Shown one piece after another: positions 15,889-32,828 of a stretch of 64,000 nt of DNA. Source of the stretch: Alkalispirochaeta americana. Its GTDB lineage: Bacteria > Spirochaetota > Spirochaetia > DSM-27196 > Alkalispirochaetaceae. The notes under the pieces are model-generated. The model worked only from the letters and a program-made list of their open reading frames with translations. It was not told where the DNA came from and searched no databases. Made by a program: the position numbers and the translations under genes. Numbering within the stretch: position 1 is the first letter of the stretch; each line of letters opens with the position of its first letter. The DNA lies in assembly GCF_900156105.1 (NCBI RefSeq), contig NZ_FTMS01000001.1:124001-188000 (forward strand), read 5' to 3'.

Positions 15889-17331
15889 ATGCAAAGTGAG
15901 AATCGTTTTCGCAATCTGTCTCCCCTGGATCATCGGTATTATCTGGCAAACCAGGCTCTTTTTGACCGTCTGGCCGATATTCTCAGCGAAGAGGCCTCTG
16001 TGGCGCAGTGCGTTCAGGTAGAGGCGGTATTGTTGCGGCATCTGGTTTCCCATGTTCTTCGCGAAGATGCCCGCAAGGAGGAGTACCTTGAGAAGATCCG
16101 GGATCTGCCCCGCCGGGTCAGTGCCGGGGAGGTCTACCGGGAAGAGGAAACCACGCGCCATAATGTGCGGGCTATCGTAAATGTGATCCAGCGCCACCTT
16201 CCGCAGGAGATTCAGCACCTGGTCCACCTGGGAGCAACCTCGGTGGATATACTGGATACAGCAGCGGCGATCCGGTATCGCGAAGCGACGCAGCAGGTGG
16301 TGGTGCCGCTCCTGCTGGACCTCCAGGAATTGCTGATCAAACTGGCCGAGGATGAGGCTGAGACGGTTTCTATCGGGCGCACCCACGGTCAGTATGCGGT
16401 TCCGATTACCCTGGGCTTTGCCATGGCAGAGTATGTCTCCCGTCTGGGTGACAGCATTGCCAGAATCGCCGAAGCAGCGGGCGATCTTCGGGGAAAACTC
16501 GCCGGTGCCGTGGGGGCATACAACGCCACCAGTGTTCTGCATCCCGATCCTGAAGAGCTGGAGCGGCAGGTTCTGGCCGATCTGGGGCTTGCCCCGGGGG
16601 AACACGCCACGCAGATTGTGAGCCCCGAACCGCTCCTGCGGCTTCTTCTGGAGATGAACACCGCCTTTGGGGTGGTGGCAAACCTCGCCGACGATTTGCG
16701 GCACCTACAGCGTTCCGAGATCGGGGAGTTCTCCGAATATTTTGCCCAGGGTCAGGTGGGATCCTCCACAATGCCCCACAAACGCAATCCCTGGAACGCC
16801 GAGCATGTGAAAAGTCTCTGGAAAGCCTTCTCACCCCGGGCCATGACCTGGTTCATGGATCAGATTTCTGAACATCAGCGGGATCTTTCCAACTCTGCCT
16901 CGGGTCGTTTCGTGGTAGAATATGTAGCAGGTTTTGTGGCGGCTCTGGAGCGGATGCGTTCTATCATCGAGCGTCTCCGGGTCGATCGGGGCGGGATCGA
17001 GCGGAATCTTCGGGAGGGTGCCCGGCGGGTAATTGCTGAACCGCTATACATCCTTCTTGCTGCGGGCGGAGTTGCCGATGCTCACGAGCAGGTGCGGCGT
17101 CTCACCCTGGCGGCTGATGAGGGGCAGGGCGAACTCCTTGAACTGGTGCGGGCCGATGAGGCGGTGTGGTCCACCGTTTCTGCCACCTATCGGCGTCTGA
17201 CCGGGGGAGATCCGGAAGAGTTCTTTGCGGATCCTTCCCGCTACACCGGTCGAGCCGCTGCCCGAACGCGCCGGATTTGTGCAAATCATCGAGAACGGGT
17301 GGCTCAACTTCGCAAAGACAGTCCTTCCTGA
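15889..17331 (+). CDS. purB: Adenylosuccinate lyase
   Basis: Tetrameric cytoplasmic enzyme that cleaves SAICAR and adenylosuccinate in purine synthesis. The 480-residue protein has the fumarase/lyase signature GSSTMPHKRNP, the region HLGATSVDILDTAAAIRYRE, and TIGRTHGQ-like (SIGRTHGQYAVPI). The ATG 15889 has no clear ribosome binding site. The gene is followed after 37 bp by purD-hisI, so the pair forms a purine/histidine operon. Confidence 0.93.
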   Translation: MQSENRFRNLSPLDHRYYLANQALFDRLADILSEEASVAQCVQVEAVLLRHLVSHVLREDARKEEYLEKIRDLPRRVSAGEVYREEETTRHNVRAIVNVIQRHLPQEIQHLVHLGATSVDILDTAAAIRYREATQQVVVPLLLDLQELLIKLAEDEAETVSIGRTHGQYAVPITLGFAMAEYVSRLGDSIARIAEAAGDLRGKLAGAVGAYNATSVLHPDPEELERQVLADLGLAPGEHATQIVSPEPLLRLLLEMNTAFGVVANLADDLRHLQRSEIGEFSEYFAQGQVGSSTMPHKRNPWNAEHVKSLWKAFSPRAMTWFMDQISEHQRDLSNSASGRFVVEYVAGFVAALERMRSIIERLRVDRGGIERNLREGARRVIAEPLYILLAAGGVADAHEQVRRLTLAADEGQGELLELVRADEAVWSTVSATYRRLTGGDPEEFFADPSRYTGRAAARTRRICANHRERVAQLRKDSPS

Positions 17332-17368
17332 GGGAGGGCGGGCCGCTTGGTTCAGGGAGGAGGGTAAC

Positions 17369-19054
17369 GTGAAGATTCTCATTGTCGGTTCCAGCGCCCG
17401 GGAGCACGCCTTTGCCTGGCGCCTCTCTGCAGGTGACCCCTCGGTGGAGGTGACGGTGGTCCCGGGTAACCCCGGGATCGCCCGGGAGTACCGGTGCCTG
17501 CCGACAGAGGTCACACCTGATCTCCTGCGTCAGGAAGCCCCCGATCTGGTGGTGGTAGGCTCTGCAGCCCCTCTGGTAGCGGGGCTTGCCGACGAGGTTC
17601 GTCGCCTGGGTATCCCCGTCGTGGGGCCTCCTGGGGAGGCCGCACGCCTGGGAGACAGCAAAACGGCGGCCAAGGAGATGATGGTTCGTCACGGAATCCC
17701 CACGCCCTCCTTTCGCTCCTGCACCGATACTGAAGAAGCTCTTGCGGCGGTGGATGAACTGGGTATCCCCGTGGTTGTGAAGGCCGATGGCCTCACCCGG
17801 GGATCGGGCGTGACCGTCTGCACCTCCCGGGACGCCGCCGAGGTCGCCATCGACGGGGCTCTGCGGCAACGTCGCTTCGGGGCGGCCGGCGAGCGGGTCG
17901 TTATAGAAAAACATCTGCGGGGAGACGGAGTCTCGCTTACCGTCCTGGTTGATGAATCGGGCTACCTCCTCATGCCCGTTGCCCGCAGTTACGAACAAGC
18001 AGGAGAGGGCGGGCAGGGTCCAAATACCAGCGGAATGGGGGCGATTATTCCCAACCCCGCCGTCTCGCCGGAGATTATCCAGGTTATTGAGAGTCGGATC
18101 ATCAAACCCAGCGTAGAGGCAATTCACCAGGAAGCCGCCCCCGGGGCCGGCGCTTACCGGGGATTTCTCCACTTCGGTCTGATCCTCACCGGCGATGGCC
18201 CCCAGATGGTGGATTACAAGATCCGTTTTGGCGATCCCGAAGCGCAGGTGACACTTCCTCTCCTGGAGGGCAACTTTGCAACGTTGCTTCTGGGGCTGGC
18301 CCGGGGGAGGCTCATGGAGGCTGCCCGCGAAGCCTCTTTCGGGGTGCGCCCCGGTGCTGCCTGTTCGGTGGTGGCCGTTTCAGCGGGGTATCCAGGCCCG
18401 TCTGCCCAGGGAGAACTGCTTCGCGACGACGGGGGCGGGCCTGATGAAACCCGGGCGGTCTTTTACCACGAGGTCCGGGAAGAAAAACAGATCCTTTCCA
18501 CCGCCGGGGGACGGGTCTTTACGGTCTCTGCCGTGGGTGACGATCCAGACCAGGCACGACTCCGGGCGTATCAGAGGATGCTGCAGATATCCTTTCGGGG
18601 GATCTCTTTCCGGCGCGACATCGGCGGGGATGCGATTATCTCCCGGGTGATGGAAGAGGGAACGGTCTTTTTGCCCCAGTTCAGCAAACGGGGGGGGATA
18701 CTCCCGGTGGTGGTTCAGGAGGCTGACAGCGGCGACATTCTGATGGTGGCCTACGCGAATGCCCAGGCCCTGGAACACACCCTGGCCTCGGGGCGTGCCG
18801 CCTTCTGGAGCACCAGTCGAAACAAGCTCTGGATCAAGGGCGAAACCAGCGGCGACACCCTGACAGTGGAAGAGGTTCGGGTTGATTGCGATCAGGATGC
18901 CCTTCTTTATCGGGTCCGTCTGAACGGGCAGGGTGTCTGCCACACGCAGGATCTCCATGGAAACCACCGGAGGCGGTGCTTTTACCGATCCCTGCAGGAT
19001 GATGGACAGCTCTTCTTCGACGAAGGCCCCGGACCGAAGGGGTGCTGTTCTTGA
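17369..19054 (+). CDS. Fusion of GAR synthetase (PurD) and phosphoribosyl-AMP cyclohydrolase (HisI)
   Basis: A single 561-residue frame. Residues 1 to about 430 are an ATP-grasp PurD domain (KILIVGSSAREHA, VVVKADGL, GPNTSGMGA, IRFGDPEAQ). Residues about 450-545 are HisI (WSTSRNKLWIKGETSG, VDCDQDALLYRV, then a zinc-type CHT and a later RCFYR). HisI metal residues are all present. In PurD, two places differ from the norm: AGKGV reads RGSGV, and EFNxRFGDPE reads DYKIRFGDPE, which removes a usual Mg-ligand Asn. GTG 17369 has GGGAGG 8 bp upstream. A G8 tract at 18690-18697 sits in the linker between domains. Confidence 0.85.
   Translation: MKILIVGSSAREHAFAWRLSAGDPSVEVTVVPGNPGIAREYRCLPTEVTPDLLRQEAPDLVVVGSAAPLVAGLADEVRRLGIPVVGPPGEAARLGDSKTAAKEMMVRHGIPTPSFRSCTDTEEALAAVDELGIPVVVKADGLTRGSGVTVCTSRDAAEVAIDGALRQRRFGAAGERVVIEKHLRGDGVSLTVLVDESGYLLMPVARSYEQAGEGGQGPNTSGMGAIIPNPAVSPEIIQVIESRIIKPSVEAIHQEAAPGAGAYRGFLHFGLILTGDGPQMVDYKIRFGDPEAQVTLPLLEGNFATLLLGLARGRLMEAAREASFGVRPGAACSVVAVSAGYPGPSAQGELLRDDGGGPDETRAVFYHEVREEKQILSTAGGRVFTVSAVGDDPDQARLRAYQRMLQISFRGISFRRDIGGDAIISRVMEEGTVFLPQFSKRGGILPVVVQEADSGDILMVAYANAQALEHTLASGRAAFWSTSRNKLWIKGETSGDTLTVEEVRVDCDQDALLYRVRLNGQGVCHTQDLHGNHRRRCFYRSLQDDGQLFFDEGPGPKGCCS
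18690..18697 (+). repeat. G8 tract in the PurD-HisI linker
   Basis: Eight G residues in the coding strand encode the K-R-G-G segment just before the HisI domain. Slippage there would leave PurD intact and remove HisI. No sign of variation can be seen in one sequence. Confidence 0.5.
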
Positions 19055-21576: not shown

Positions 21577-22494
21577 TTATTTTCGGTAGGCCAGGGCCCG
21601 GGTCTTTTCGTAGCCAAAGAGCTCGTCCCGCTTCAGATCGCCCGGTTCCACGGTTTCGCCAAAGGACTCCTCCAGGCGTGCCGCAAAGGCATCGCGAAAC
21701 GACTCCAGGGAGGGCCGTTTTCCCGTGAGCTCCTCTACGCTGGTCAGGGGCTCCACCACTTTATCCTTGACCTCGGGTGTTACCCAAATGACCTTGAAAA
21801 AATCCTCTGTCTTCAAGGGGCCCAGGAAGCAGACTGTGTTGATTACGTAGAGATTTTCGATCTCCGAGACCAGGATGGTGGCCAGTTTTCTGCCCCGGGC
21901 ACGGATGCTGCCCCGGTGCTTGTACCAGGCCTCATGGGCGCCCAAGTCATGGAGGGTTTTCTCCAGCATCTCTCCCACCCTGCGAAACGCCTCGTCTCCG
22001 TCGGTGAAACGGCTTTTTTCCACCACGAACTGAACGTTTACCGTTGCCTCGGGGCTGACAAAGACCAGCGTCCGCTGGCCCGCCAGAATTACCTGTTCCA
22101 GGGCGGGAACCTCGTCACGGATCTCGTCGAGAAGACTGACAAAGTTGGCCAGAAGGATGATCGCTCTGGCACCGCAGTCGTTCAGGATATAGGCGATCTC
22201 CCGTCCTTTGTACATGGCATTAAAGGGAACGGCCGTGGCCCCCAGTTTCTGGATTCCGTAGAAGCAGTAGATGAACTCCGGAATATTGGGGAGCATCAGG
22301 GCCACCCGGTCTCCCGGCTTGATCCCCAGTTTTTTCAGGCCGTTCGCCACACGGTTGGCGCTCTTGTCGAGTTCGCCGTAGGAGATTCGCCGGTTTGCAA
22401 AGCGGATCGCTTCCTTGCGCTTCAGTTTTCTGGCAACTTCCTGGAGAATTTCTCCCAATGGTGCGGGTTCTGTTATGATTGGCTGGTTAGACAT
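21577..22494 (-). CDS. Chimera: N-terminal part of an acyl-CoA synthetase joined to the C-terminal half of a lipoate-ligase-like protein
   Basis: The 305-residue protein begins like a FadD-type adenylate-forming enzyme (RISYGELDKSANRVANGL, GDRVALMLPNIPEF, then LEQVILAGQ) but has no YTSGTTG motif. At about residue 139 it switches to a lipoate-protein-ligase-like C-terminal half (VNVQFVVEKSRF, ARGRKLATILVSE with the usual Lys, KDKVVEPLTSVEEL, RLEESFGETVEPG). The missing synthetase C-terminal part and lipoate-ligase N-terminal half are in the gene immediately upstream. GGGAGG lies about 8 bp before the ATG, and the start overlaps the upstream stop by 8 bp. I do not think it is a simple fragment, because the frame is intact and coupled. 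Confidence 0.75.
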   Translation of the reverse strand: MSNQPIITEPAPLGEILQEVARKLKRKEAIRFANRRISYGELDKSANRVANGLKKLGIKPGDRVALMLPNIPEFIYCFYGIQKLGATAVPFNAMYKGREIAYILNDCGARAIILLANFVSLLDEIRDEVPALEQVILAGQRTLVFVSPEATVNVQFVVEKSRFTDGDEAFRRVGEMLEKTLHDLGAHEAWYKHRGSIRARGRKLATILVSEIENLYVINTVCFLGPLKTEDFFKVIWVTPEVKDKVVEPLTSVEELTGKRPSLESFRDAFAARLEESFGETVEPGDLKRDELFGYEKTRALAYRK

Positions 22495-24001
22495 GGCTGG
22501 AATCCTCCCGATTGATGAGTCGATCGTCCTGGGCCTCTCCGCGCAGTTCCCGGCGCAGAACCTTTCCGGCAGCGCTCTTGGGCAAGGCCGGGACGAACTC
22601 GAAGAGTTTGGGTACCTTGTAGGGTGCCAGGTGGGCTGTGCAAAATTCAGAAAGCTCCGCCTGGGTCAGGTCCTCTTCTTCCTTGAGAACCACAAAGGCT
22701 TTCACCGCTTCGCGGCCCCGCTTGTCCTGGACCGCCACAACGGCCGATTCCTGCACCGCTCGATGGGTCGCGATCGTCTCCTCCACCTCCCGGGGCGATA
22801 TATTGAATCCTCCCCGGATGATCAGGTCCTTCTTCCGGTCTGTAATAAAATAGTAGCCGTCGCTATCGCGATGGCCCAGGTCCCCCGTATGAAACCAGCC
22901 GTCGAGGATCGCCTCTTCCGTGGCTTCGCGGTTGTTCCAGTACCCCCGGGTGACCACAGGCCCCCGGATCACGATCTCTCCCTCCTGGTTGTCAGGAAGC
23001 AGGGTTCCTTCTTCATCCATGATCGCCATCTCGATGCTCCCCGCAGGAGGACCGATGGACCCCTCCTTGTAGGCCTCGCCGCTGGGGTTGAGCGAGACCG
23101 CCGAGGTTGTCTCGGTGAGTCCGTATCCTTCGTTGATCCGGGTCTGGAAGAGTTCTTCAAACTCCTGAATCGTTGCCACAGCCAGGGGGGCTCCTCCGGA
23201 GATGCACCCTCGCAGAGATTTGGGGATGCTCTGTTTTCTCACGCGGGCGGATTGCAACAAATGCTGGTACATCGTGGGAATCGCTATCAGCAAGGTCGCT
23301 TCCTGTTCGGTTATGGTGGAGAGGAGGTTTGCCGGAGAGTAGTGGGACACCAGGGCCATGGAACAGCCGTTAAAGACCGATGCCACCAGTCCGTTGGAAA
23401 GTCCATAGACGTGAAAGAGAGGCAACACCAGAACGACCCGGTCTTCGGTGAGCATCTCCATCACCGAGGGAACCACCTGGGAACACTGAGAGTAAAAATT
23501 GGTGTGGCTCAGCATGACACCCTTGGGTTTTCCCGTGGTGCCCGACGTGTAGAGCAGGACCGCCGGTTGATCCATATCCACCGATTCGGCGGTGAAGGAA
23601 TCGGAAGCCCCGGTCATGAGTGCGTTCAGCGAGACCGTATCCACGGGCTGCGCCCCGGAGCGGCCGCTTCGGGGCTGGCGCGCCACGTCGATTCCCTCTT
23701 TTTTTGCCGTTTCCTGATCAACCGAAAGATCTGCCCCGGCGATGATTCCCTTGCGGGACACTCCCTGGATCACCACCGTATCGGGAAGCTGATCTTTGGA
23801 GAGCATGTATTTCCCGGCGATTCTTCCCTCGGCCAACCCTGTCGCGTAGGCCAGGATGTCGGCGGCGTCACCCGAGGGGTTAAAGATGAGTCGCATTCCC
23901 CGGGAGCCGGGAGTCCTGGACTCCTCCTGTCGGGACGCCTCTTGCCGGGAATCCCTCTGCCGGGGAGTCCTGGGGGTCTTCCTGAAAAAATTGAAAGCCA
24001 T
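22487..24001 (-). CDS. Chimera: N-terminal half of a lipoate-ligase-like protein joined to the C-terminal part of an acyl-CoA synthetase
   Basis: The 504-residue protein has a basic repetitive leader (about 1-35), then a lipoate-ligase-like N-terminal half (LAYATGLAEG, VVIQGVSRKGIIAGADLSV, KKEGIDVARQ) to about residue 117. It continues as an AMP-forming synthetase from DTVSLNALM, with YTSGTTGKPKGVMLSH, EGYGLTETTSA, TGDLGHRDSDGY, RKKDLIIRGGFNI and the catalytic Lys in SAAGKVLRREL. The first 130-140 residues of the synthetase are instead in the next gene. GGGAGGAGG lies 9 bp before ATG 24001. The lipoate half lacks the RRxxGGG motif (reads RQPRSGRSG). Confidence 0.78.
   Translation of the reverse strand: MAFNFFRKTPRTPRQRDSRQEASRQEESRTPGSRGMRLIFNPSGDAADILAYATGLAEGRIAGKYMLSKDQLPDTVVIQGVSRKGIIAGADLSVDQETAKKEGIDVARQPRSGRSGAQPVDTVSLNALMTGASDSFTAESVDMDQPAVLLYTSGTTGKPKGVMLSHTNFYSQCSQVVPSVMEMLTEDRVVLVLPLFHVYGLSNGLVASVFNGCSMALVSHYSPANLLSTITEQEATLLIAIPTMYQHLLQSARVRKQSIPKSLRGCISGGAPLAVATIQEFEELFQTRINEGYGLTETTSAVSLNPSGEAYKEGSIGPPAGSIEMAIMDEEGTLLPDNQEGEIVIRGPVVTRGYWNNREATEEAILDGWFHTGDLGHRDSDGYYFITDRKKDLIIRGGFNISPREVEETIATHRAVQESAVVAVQDKRGREAVKAFVVLKEEEDLTQAELSEFCTAHLAPYKVPKLFEFVPALPKSAAGKVLRRELRGEAQDDRLINREDSSHV
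23907..23973 (-). repeat. 15-bp tandem repeat encoding the basic leader of the chimera
   Basis: Units TGTCGGGACGCCTCT, TGCCGGGAATCCCTC and TGCCGGGGAGTCCTG follow each other on the plus strand. On the coding strand they give the period-five peptide RQRDS-RQEAS-RQEES, a probably unstructured tail at the N-terminus of the chimeric protein. Confidence 0.6.
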
Positions 24002-24036
24002 CGTCTTGATCCTCCTCCCGGAGTCTTCCTCCGGAA

Positions 24037-25566
24037 TCAGCGGGTACTCTCGGCGAGGAGAAACTCCTCGACCTCGTCGAAAAATATCGCCTCGGTCTGC
24101 TCGTCGATGGGGGGACTCAGGAGACTCACCACCACGTAGACCAGGGCGTTCACGGGAAGGGTAGGAATAACGGGGTGGAGATCAAAGAGCAGAACCCGGG
24201 CCCCCTGGGCATCTCGTACAATCAGACCCAGAATGAGATAGATCGTTCCCACCAGCGTGGCCGCTATGGCACCCTGTTTTGATCCTCGCTTCCAGAGAAG
24301 GCCTCCCACCAGAGCCGGCGCCCACTGGGCAAAGCCGGGCACGCTCACGTCGGTAAGATAGAGAGCCATCGCTTCCTGTCCCAGCCCCAGCTCAACAGCG
24401 GCGGTAACCAGAAGACTGGCCGCCACAATAGCTATTACGGCCCACCGGGCGATAGCTGTGATCTCCCGGTCTCCGGCATCGGGTTTGATCACCCCCTGCA
24501 CCAGATCCCGTGCCACGAGAATGCTGGACATCATGAGTTGGACCGCAGCGGTGGAAATGGCCGCTGCAACCACCCCCATGAGGACAAAAACACCGAACCA
24601 GGGGGGCAGATAGGTTTGAATGATGGTTTGTACAATCCTGTCAGCCTCGGCAGCATCGGTTATTCCCGGCGCCACGGCAGGAGCCACCAGGGAACCCCAG
24701 ATGAAAGGGATGATATAGAAGAAAAGTCCGCCCAGGGTGAAAATCAGCAAAGGGAACCACTTGAAGAGCTTTTTGTCGCGGGCCGTCATGGCACCAATGG
24801 TGATATGGGGCCACGAAAAGGCCAGAAGTCCCACAAGAAAGGTGCCAAAGATCAGCACCGGTGTGTAGGTCCCCTCCGGGCCGGGTGCTGCCAGTTTGGC
24901 TGGCTCTGCTTCAGCAATCCGGGCGGCCGCCTCGGCAAGGCCTCCCTGGGGAAAAAGCACCGCCACGATCCACAGGAGAGATCCCAGAAGCGCTGTCACG
25001 TAGACTGTTCCCAGGAAAATATTCACCCAGGCAACGATACGCATTCCCCCCAACAGCACCAGGACGATCAGCAGGACCGCCGTGTAGGCTGCGCCCACCC
25101 AGAGAGGGAGTCCGGTGAGCGCCTCAAACCCCCGTCCCACGCCCAGGGGCTGCACACCCACATAGGGAACAATGAAGGCCAGAATTGTCACCGAAAGGAT
25201 GAGTCGCAGTGCTTTGGACTGATACCGCTCAGCCAGGAGCTCCACGGGGGAGAGAAACTGGTTGAGTTTTGCCAGGGCCCACAAGCGTGGCCCCAGGAAC
25301 ATATACAGGCCGGCAAAACCGGCAACAGATCCCCAGATGAAGAAGACGTACCCCGGACCTTCCCGGTAGAGAACTCCCGGGAAGCCGTAAAAGGTCCAAC
25401 TTGAAGAGATGGCGAAGAGAACAAAGAAGAACATCACCACCACACCAATGGTTCGGCCGCCCAGCATGAAGTCCTCGGCCGTGCGGGCGGATATTTTGTA
25501 TCCGTAGGCCGCCATGGCGATGATAATCAGACCGAAGAGGCCCAGGGCAAAGAGATCGAATGTCAT
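24037..25566 (-). CDS. Sodium:solute symporter (SSS family)
   Basis: Inner-membrane Na+-coupled importer of 509 residues with about 13 membrane segments. The SSS features include LGGRTIGV and SSSWTFYGFPG near the N-terminus, and AAISTAAVQLMMSSILVARD in the middle. GGGAGGT lies 7 bp before the ATG. It follows a 77-residue membrane protein, a common pairing for SSS transporters, and precedes the two chimeric synthetase genes. The substrate is unknown; an organic acid such as acetate or another carboxylate is a guess from the neighbouring acyl-activating enzymes. Confidence 0.88.
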   Translation of the reverse strand: MTFDLFALGLFGLIIIAMAAYGYKISARTAEDFMLGGRTIGVVVMFFFVLFAISSSWTFYGFPGVLYREGPGYVFFIWGSVAGFAGLYMFLGPRLWALAKLNQFLSPVELLAERYQSKALRLILSVTILAFIVPYVGVQPLGVGRGFEALTGLPLWVGAAYTAVLLIVLVLLGGMRIVAWVNIFLGTVYVTALLGSLLWIVAVLFPQGGLAEAAARIAEAEPAKLAAPGPEGTYTPVLIFGTFLVGLLAFSWPHITIGAMTARDKKLFKWFPLLIFTLGGLFFYIIPFIWGSLVAPAVAPGITDAAEADRIVQTIIQTYLPPWFGVFVLMGVVAAAISTAAVQLMMSSILVARDLVQGVIKPDAGDREITAIARWAVIAIVAASLLVTAAVELGLGQEAMALYLTDVSVPGFAQWAPALVGGLLWKRGSKQGAIAATLVGTIYLILGLIVRDAQGARVLLFDLHPVIPTLPVNALVYVVVSLLSPPIDEQTEAIFFDEVEEFLLAESTR

Positions 25567-31076: not shown

Positions 31077-32828
31077 ATGGCACACACAGCAACAAAAGGA
31101 CGATCCCTTCCCTGGGATTTCCTGGATGAGTATCGAGGCGAACTTTTTTCCGGCACATGGCCAACCCTTCCTCAGTTGTTTGAGGTTTCCCTTCGCCGCT
31201 TCCCGGACCGTCCCTGTTTTACCGTGTACGAACCCGACCGGGTATCGCTCACATACCGGGAAGCTCACGACCGAATCACCGCCGTGGCGCGGCATCTGCG
31301 TTCCCTGGGAGTTCGTGAGGGCGACCGCGTCGCCGTAACAGGCAAGAACAGCCCCGAGTGGGCCGTGGCCTATCTGGCGGTGCTCTATGCGGGAGCTGTG
31401 GTAGTTCCCATCGATTACCAGCTCCACGACCAGGAGATTGCAAACCTGATCAAGGCAGGTGGGGCCGAGGTCCTCTTTGTCGACGAGGAACGGTTCGATT
31501 TCTTTCAGGCCGGAACGGTTCCCCTGAAGGCGGTCCTCAGCCTGGCCCGATCGAAAGAGCCCTATCTGTACAGCCTTCAGGATGACCTTCAGAGTCAGCA
31601 GGAGGCACTTCCTTCGGTCTCTGCCGATACCACGGCGGCCATCCTCTTTACCTCGGGCACAACGGGGCGGCCCAAGGGGGTCGTCCTCTCTCACGAGAAC
31701 CTGGTGGCCGACTGCTTTCTGGCTCAGGCGAACCTGACGCTCTATCATACCGATGTGTTCTACGCGCTCTTGCCCCTGCACCACAGTTATTGCATGTTGG
31801 CGGTCTTTATCGAGAGCCTCTCCGTGGGGGCCGAGACGGTTTTTGGAAAGCGTGTGGTTATCTCCCAGGTTTTACACGATCTGCGGGCTGCCGAGGTGAC
31901 GATGTTCCTGGGTGTTCCCCTGCTCTTCAACAAACTCCTGGCGGGAATAATGAGGGGTGTTCGCGAAAAAGGTCCTGTGGTGTACGGAGTTATCCGCATC
32001 CTCATGTGGAAAAGCGGTGTCGTCAAGAAACTCACCGGGATTAACCTCGGGAAAAAGCTCTTCAGCACCGTCCTGGAGAAGGCCTCGCTCTCCACAATCC
32101 GTATCTGTATCTCCGGAGGGGGGCCTCTGGCTCCCAGGGTGTTCCGCGCCTACAACCAGTTGGGGATCGATTTCATCCAGGGCTACGGTCTCACCGAGAC
32201 ATCGCCCATCCTCACGCTGAACCCCGTGGAACGCTACAAGGAGACCAGCGTAGGGAAAGTCCTTCCCGAGACGGATATCCGCATCATCAATGCCGATGAA
32301 CGCGGCGTGGGCGAGATCGTGGTAAAGGGACCCATGGTGATGCAGGGCTATTACGAGATGCCCCAGGAGACAGCCCGGGTCTTCACCGACGACGGCTACT
32401 TCCAGACCGGGGATATGGGATACCTGGACAATGAGCAGTATCTCTATCTCACGGGGCGGGCCAAGAACCTCATCGTCAGTGAGGGAGGGAAGAACGTTTA
32501 TCCTGAGGAGATCGAAAACTCCTTCCAGCTCTACGACGAGATCGCCCAGATTCTGGTGCGGGGGTACCAGTCCGAGCGGACCCCGGGGGCAGAGCTGATC
32601 GAAGCCCTGGTATACCCCAACAAGGATTTCTTCGCTGCCGGTGCTCCCGGTGGGGCAGGCCCTGAACAGGCGGCGTCACCGGAAGCGGTGGAGGCCCGCA
32701 TCAAGGCAATCATCGATGAGGTGAACAAGCGTCTTCAGCCCTATCAGCGCATATCCCGGACGCAGCTGGTGGAGCAGGAGATGGCAACCACCTCCACGAA
32801 AAAAATCAAGCGTGATACGGTAGATTAG
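31077..32828 (+). CDS. AMP-forming long-chain acyl-CoA synthetase
   Basis: Adenylate-forming enzyme of 583 residues, complete and unsplit. Motifs are FTSGTTGRPKGVVLSH (about 190-205), QGYGLTETSPI, the aspartate loop TGDMGYLDNEQY, GRAKNLIVSEGGKNVYPEE, and a C-terminal Lys in ATTSTKKIKRD. It activates a fatty or other carboxylic acid with ATP and CoA. The ATG 31077 has only a weak upstream site. It is a useful intact comparison for the chimeric pair at 21.6-24.0 kb. Confidence 0.88.
   Translation: MAHTATKGRSLPWDFLDEYRGELFSGTWPTLPQLFEVSLRRFPDRPCFTVYEPDRVSLTYREAHDRITAVARHLRSLGVREGDRVAVTGKNSPEWAVAYLAVLYAGAVVVPIDYQLHDQEIANLIKAGGAEVLFVDEERFDFFQAGTVPLKAVLSLARSKEPYLYSLQDDLQSQQEALPSVSADTTAAILFTSGTTGRPKGVVLSHENLVADCFLAQANLTLYHTDVFYALLPLHHSYCMLAVFIESLSVGAETVFGKRVVISQVLHDLRAAEVTMFLGVPLLFNKLLAGIMRGVREKGPVVYGVIRILMWKSGVVKKLTGINLGKKLFSTVLEKASLSTIRICISGGGPLAPRVFRAYNQLGIDFIQGYGLTETSPILTLNPVERYKETSVGKVLPETDIRIINADERGVGEIVVKGPMVMQGYYEMPQETARVFTDDGYFQTGDMGYLDNEQYLYLTGRAKNLIVSEGGKNVYPEEIENSFQLYDEIAQILVRGYQSERTPGAELIEALVYPNKDFFAAGAPGGAGPEQAASPEAVEARIKAIIDEVNKRLQPYQRISRTQLVEQEMATTSTKKIKRDTVD

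Follow-up and report, generated by a model that had tools for sequence, protein, structure and literature searches.

Two overlapping genes of Alkalispirochaeta americana encode reciprocal halves of two unrelated enzymes, an AMP-forming acyl-CoA synthetase and a ligase-like protein of the LplA type, each chain carrying one part of either enzyme. This arrangement, its conservation, the intact state of the synthetase motifs and the operon are established here by sequence analysis of the window (the whole 64,000-nucleotide stretch of DNA under analysis) and of related genomes. The reading that we favor, by a modest margin over its alternatives taken together, is that of a heterodimeric acyl-CoA synthetase acting on an imported carboxylate, with a repurposed ligase fold as a coupling module; the heterodimer, its activity, the class of substrate and the role of the ligase fold are all inferred.

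Locus layout and the two rejoined modules

Transcription of the locus runs on the minus strand from a symporter gene through gene A to gene B, and both reading frames of the pair are open on the same strand. The segments of gene A are named L1-S2 and those of gene B S1-L2 (S, synthetase; L, ligase), with the following features:

24037..25566, minus strand: SSF sodium:solute symporter gene, first of a conserved three-gene block (PF00474, 103.9 bits)
24011..24019, minus strand: likely ribosome-binding site of gene A, GGGAGGAGG (sequence inspection)
22487..24001, minus strand: gene A, L1-S2, 504 aa (ORF, Pfam domains, alignments)
23897..24001, minus strand: 35-aa genus-specific extension at the N terminus of gene A, under weak constraint (dN/dS 0.49)
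23651..23896, minus strand: L1, N-terminal half of an LplA-like fold with an RxGRxG loop at its end (alignment A4, rejoined L scores)
22490..23647, minus strand: S2, synthetase from before the P-loop through the C-terminal domain (PF00501 151-384 and PF13193)
23519..23551, minus strand: P-loop YTSGTTGKPKG in S2 (invariant or nearly so, alignment A2)
22562..22564, minus strand: catalytic Lys of the synthetase, K480 of gene A (invariant in alignment A2)
22503..22509, minus strand: GGGAGGA, likely ribosome-binding site of gene B within the end of gene A (sequence inspection)
22487..22494, minus strand: 8-bp overlap of the gene A stop and the gene B start (ORF coordinates)
21577..22494, minus strand: gene B, S1-L2, 305 aa (ORF, Pfam domains, alignments)
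22078..22494, minus strand: S1, first synthetase subdomain (PF00501 2-126; FadD5 fold match of the L039 homolog)
21580..22074, minus strand: L2, C-terminal half of an LplA/BPL-type catalytic fold (PF21948; hhalign; BPL fold match of the L039 homolog)
21886..21888, minus strand: K203 of gene B at the position of the LplA substrate-binding Lys (GRK-IxG; invariant, aligned with LplA GRKISG)

By Pfam, gene A begins with about 117 residues without a match, followed by PF00501 (151-384) and the AMP-binding C-terminal domain PF13193, and gene B consists of PF00501 positions 2-126 followed by PF21948 (LplA-B_cat) positions 74-199. The 35-residue extension of gene A has a good Shine-Dalgarno sequence; it is present in only a part of the genus and absent from most relatives outside it. 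Elsewhere in the window (17225-19054, plus strand), a 609-aa ORF encodes a complete PurD (GARS N, A and C) fused to the HisI phosphoribosyl-AMP cyclohydrolase.

Rejoining S1 to S2 yields a PF00501 score of 336.6 bits vs. 216 and 112 bits for the separate halves, and a score of 524.4 bits for NCBIfam model PRK06187 (curated cut-off, 476 bits), whereas the halves (401 and 113 bits) both remain under that cut-off. Intact synthetases (40-43% identity) can be aligned over residues 13-516, continuously across the S join, and the P-loop, EGYGLTE, TGDLG, DRKKDLI and C-terminal PKSxxGK motifs are invariant or nearly so in a 19-row alignment. In the homolog from a relative (locus L039), S1 matches the N-terminal subdomain of FadD5 (Z 16.3, 2.0 Å, 135 residues). 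By its domain set, curated score and intact motifs the rejoined S is an AMP-forming acyl-CoA synthetase, the formation of acyl-CoA as such being inferred. The one-chain criterion for synthetases failed, the adenylation domain being split over two genes in all relatives.

The ligase-like module is more diverged. Nothing useful was returned for L1 alone by Pfam, PDB-sequence or hhalign searches, and its assignment as a ligase half rests mainly on rejoined comparisons, since on its own it is too short and too diverged; its alignment (A4) contains 19 invariant columns. L2 alone has no PDB match by sequence search and scores 26.1 bits with PF21948 (cut-off, 27 bits), and the rejoined L1+L2 reaches 30.6 bits in the window and 38.1-42.5 bits in three relatives. 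A rejoined-L profile matches intact LplA-like ORFs of ~370 aa from the phylum of genome G427 (Desulfobacterota-type) with 79-88 bits (E 1e-22 to 1e-25); these ORFs cover profile positions 34-242, spanning the join at 84, and in the two ORFs scanned PF21948 was matched clearly (98 and 92 bits). L2 also matches a set of 16 canonical LplA sequences (hhalign, E 5e-6), and residues 155-295 of the L039 homolog match the biotin protein ligase structure 3efs (Z 14.8, 2.2 Å, 126 aligned residues), biotin ligases being the best fold matches of the predicted L2 among the rows listed.

The GGG motif is absent from its expected place in all 36 rejoined ligases analyzed. The LplA loop RRxSGGGA, retained by canonical LplA proteins of the same genomes, is replaced by R-x-G-R-x-x/R-T-L, where the slash marks the join between L1 on chain A and L2 on chain B; this loop is similar, although not identical, to the GRGRxGRxW loop of biotin ligases. 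K203 of gene B, which hhalign places on the Lys of LplA GRKISG, is invariant in both a 20-row and a 42-row alignment. The rejoined L (247 aa) ends with the catalytic domain and does not have the C-terminal domain of LplA, which is needed for lipoyl-AMP synthesis (PMC7253636). Given the replaced loop and the missing domain, we consider L a member of the superfamily rather than a normal lipoate ligase.

Structure prediction was performed for L039, where genes A and B share one frame with a TGA between them, and reading this codon as Gly gives a single 797-residue chain. The AlphaFold2 model of this chain has a mean pLDDT of 87.1 and a pTM of 0.84, with pLDDT <50 only at the linker (458-494) and at three residues (122-124). 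In the model of gene B alone (pLDDT 79.8, pTM 0.57), blocks fall to 57-78 at the join strand and to 58-75 where L2 ends, vs. >=87 in most blocks of the two-chain model. These predictions fit a pair in which either chain completes the folds begun by its partner; that S1 docks on S2, and L1 on L2, is inferred from pTM. A fold search with the whole two-chain model returned synthetases only, S2 filling the list. Mutual information over 36 sequences (Neff 32, too few for this purpose) showed an approximately two-fold enrichment of L1-L2 pairs in the top 100 and no enrichment of S1-S2 pairs.

The first-pass annotation of this locus had claimed exchanged halves of an acyl-CoA synthetase and a lipoate ligase, two intact frames overlapping by 8 bp, continuous proteins upon rejoining, and a lipoate half lacking GGG. 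All of these claims held: the first by Pfam domains, profile scores and conservation, the third for both families by curated scores and alignments across the joins, and the last in the entire set of rejoined ligases. Its identification of the lipoate-ligase N-half has to be qualified, L1 alone being under Pfam detection and tied to LplA mainly via the rejoined profile. The view of a selected pair with folds completed between chains is supported by conservation, profile scores and AlphaFold2, the physical heterodimer remaining an inference, and a role of the ligase half as an assembly part only has not been shown. The gene at 31077, proposed as a reference, is an intact synthetase of another subfamily (with a weak PF23562-type C domain) and a poor reference, closer intact homologs (40-43% identity) being found elsewhere. 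Neither observation named as a possible refutation is borne out: instead of unrearranged genes, single-contig genomes carry the pair, and instead of lacking significant ligase similarity, the halves show it by rejoined profile, hhalign and fold match.

Conservation, age of the joins and genomic neighborhood

Gene B is full-length in about 28 of 41 relatives from eight families of the order (54-92% identity), two single-contig genomes being among the carriers, and gene A is distributed likewise. Among named organisms, Alkalispirochaeta alkalica DSM 8900 is the nearest. In GTDB genomes, 48 L2 loci were identified by scanning. Genes A and B are adjacent and constant in order, with variable spacing, in 65 locus records; all complete sequences have L1-S2 ahead of S1-L2 with both genes in the same direction, and the exceptions are contig ends or N runs, frameshifts and decay. 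The search for the same pair in related genomes, as suggested in the first-pass annotation, recovered it in the same order. Among individual records, one pair is decayed (L094 in G021, with gene A fragmented and gene B devoid of a start). In a MAG (G428; L091, L148), the pair is separated within one chromosome, gene A and its symporter gene being located at 894 kb and gene B, together with a broken 3' fragment of gene A, at 164 kb; this separation is likely a mis-join.

The pair occurs throughout the order and elsewhere in the Spirochaetota, as well as in MAGs of Desulfobacterota type and of Fibrobacterota. Its non-spirochaete carriers are MAGs labelled Syntrophobacterales, Deltaproteobacteria, Proteobacteria and Chitinivibrionales, most of which fall in one deep clade of the tree. 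Two delta-type MAGs (L095, L097) and a Latescibacterota MAG are placed among spirochaetes, which is suggestive of transfer or misbinning. The distribution is patchy: in a draw of 393 genomes from the phylum, only 10 carry the pair. Between the window and A. alkalica, dN/dS values of 0.039 (L1), 0.069 (S2), 0.033 (S1) and 0.070 (L2) place both modules under strong purifying selection (0.03-0.07 in all four segments); the value of 0.49 for the 35-residue extension of gene A indicates loose constraint.

The sequence CAGC is indeed present at both joins of the window (23647-23650 and 22074-22077), but its earlier interpretation as a shared breakpoint failed, as relatives do not retain it. Over 65 locus records, the longest run shared between the joins averages 3.5 nt, vs. 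3.6 nt for randomly paired joins. A recent rearrangement at CAGC is rejected: the joins are ancient, and these four bases, not being shared in relatives, are uninformative on origin. A putative origin is an insertion into the substrate loop of L, the inserted DNA being either one unit of a head-to-tail S-S array or a circular molecule with a single S gene. The order L1-S2-stop-start-S1-L2 is the outcome expected of such an insertion, in which a single event would yield both joins.

In 41 loci, the SSF symporter gene immediately precedes gene A. The closest named models for this symporter are PanF (141.5 bits) and PutP (128.3 bits), both under cut-off. At L095 (2039-3973), a different, ActP-like SSF member replaces the usual symporter upstream, and no symporter is present at the decayed pair (G021/L094) or at L093. 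The nearest intact relative of the L module, a ~370 aa LplA-like gene with an RRVGGGGC loop (L142, L143, L144), comes from Desulfobacterota-type genomes, where a TRAP DctM permease gene and a DXS-like gene lie next to it or convergent to it. Taken as a whole, the SSF and TRAP carboxylate-type permease contexts point, by inference, to an imported acid.

Proposed two-chain enzyme and alternative explanations

In the proposed model, A and B would be two partner chains of one enzyme. S1 of chain B would dock on S2 of chain A, completing an AMP-forming acyl-CoA synthetase, and L1 of chain A would dock on L2 of chain B, forming beside it a complete but altered LplA/BPL-type fold. Each chain would cross between the modules once, at the same point, and we propose that neither module forms without both chains. 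The enzyme would adenylate a carboxylic acid imported by the upstream sodium symporter and then transfer it to CoA; the ligase-fold module, its ATP/lipoate loop lost, would now mainly couple the chains and perhaps bind the acyl group or the CoA arm. A purely structural ligase module would leave the constancy of K203 and of the RxGRxx/RTL loop unexplained.

Of the alternatives, the first is two-step protein acylation, in which S would make an acyl-AMP and L would use it to acylate a lysine on an acceptor protein. In its favor, L belongs to the LplA superfamily and has the substrate-binding Lys in every row; LIPT1 is known as a half-ligase whose lipoyl-AMP is supplied from another source (PMC7253636); and in two small MAGs with GcvH-like proteins (G429, G599) the pair is the sole PF21948 match. 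Against it, the lipoyl-binding GGG loop is lost, PF21948 proteins of LplA/LipB type are already present in all 41 relatives, no acceptor gene adjoins the pair, and the two MAGs may be incomplete. We consider this alternative unlikely, and the same applies to its bolder form, an obligate interlocked heterodimer whose ligase module would move the acyl-adenylate of the synthetase onto an acceptor lysine or carrier; if true, bacteria would possess a machine that both activates an imported acid and transfers it. Housekeeping lipoylation, likewise, is improbable given LplA/LipB-type proteins in 41/41 relatives, although it is not excluded for some small MAGs. As a separate observation, a further small MAG (G690) has GcvH-like proteins and no PF21948 match reaching threshold.

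A second alternative, also doubtful, presents the L module as a regulator through which a lipoyl, biotinyl or acyl ligand would allosterically control the threaded synthetase. Because the join falls within the ligase-fold ligand loop, a ligand bound there would contact both crossings, and the loop, divided between the chains, is constant; however, no ligand is known. Fusion of both ORFs into one polypeptide by frameshifting or stop read-through is rejected as very unlikely: short overlap and coupling are seen in many loci, and A and B share one frame in 14 locus records, but frames and spacing differ widely (at one extreme S1 overlaps the 3' end of A, at the other the gap is +160 nt) and the stop between A and B is always retained. 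A sequencing or assembly artefact, or a recent single-strain rearrangement, suggested by the four identical bases at the window joins, is refuted by ancient joins without conserved CAGC and by the occurrence of the pair in dozens of genomes, two of them single-contig.

Comparison with known systems

No description of such a crossed pair was found in the open-licence literature searched, and, to our knowledge, there is no precedent for two unrelated enzymes with exchanged halves cut inside domains. Within these limits the architecture is new; the component families are known, and the chemistry is probably conventional. Gene fusion, gene fission and circular permutation all have ample precedent, whereas that literature does not describe two unrelated enzyme domains that have swapped internal halves with each other and kept this state across phyla. 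The pair provides a natural test of how a fold is rebuilt between chains, how such an arrangement may arise without loss of function, and why the inter-chain stop is always retained. It also provides a warning for annotation, as either gene alone resembles a truncated acyl-CoA synthetase.

Like AMP-forming acyl-CoA synthetases (PF00501/PF13193), the rejoined S has the complete domain set and catalytic motifs; its solved relatives include oxalate-CoA ligase (5ie0), FadD13 and MenE, and its subfamily is PRK06187 (long-chain fatty-acid-CoA ligase). Unlike these normally one-chain enzymes, S is cut before the P-loop and distributed over two chains fused to ligase halves. The L module shares with LplA (PF21948), most of all with the intact genes of L142-L144, the fold, the order of elements and the substrate Lys, its EPxTSVxExTG segment resembling YVTSIEKVTG; it differs in being split in the substrate loop, in having neither GGG nor the C-terminal domain, and in the fusion of its halves to another enzyme. 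Biotin protein ligase (BirA/BPL) is similar in the fold of L2 (3efs) and in a GRxG..R-like loop at the join, but sequence profiles favor LplA, the loop is not identical, and L has no DNA-binding or SH3-like domain.

The bovine lipoate-activating enzyme is an activator of acyl-CoA-synthetase type that is paired with the LplA-fold lipoyltransferase LIPT1. The window pair similarly combines a synthetase-type activator with an LplA-fold protein, although the bovine proteins are separate, intact and act in sequence, whereas here reciprocal halves are found. Two-subunit lipoate ligases (LplA large/small) and domain-shuffled ADP-forming acyl-CoA synthetases also exist, and the pair resembles them as an enzyme of such a class encoded by two genes. 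Those systems, however, are cut between domains, whereas in the window the cuts fall inside domains of two different enzymes, whose pieces have been exchanged.
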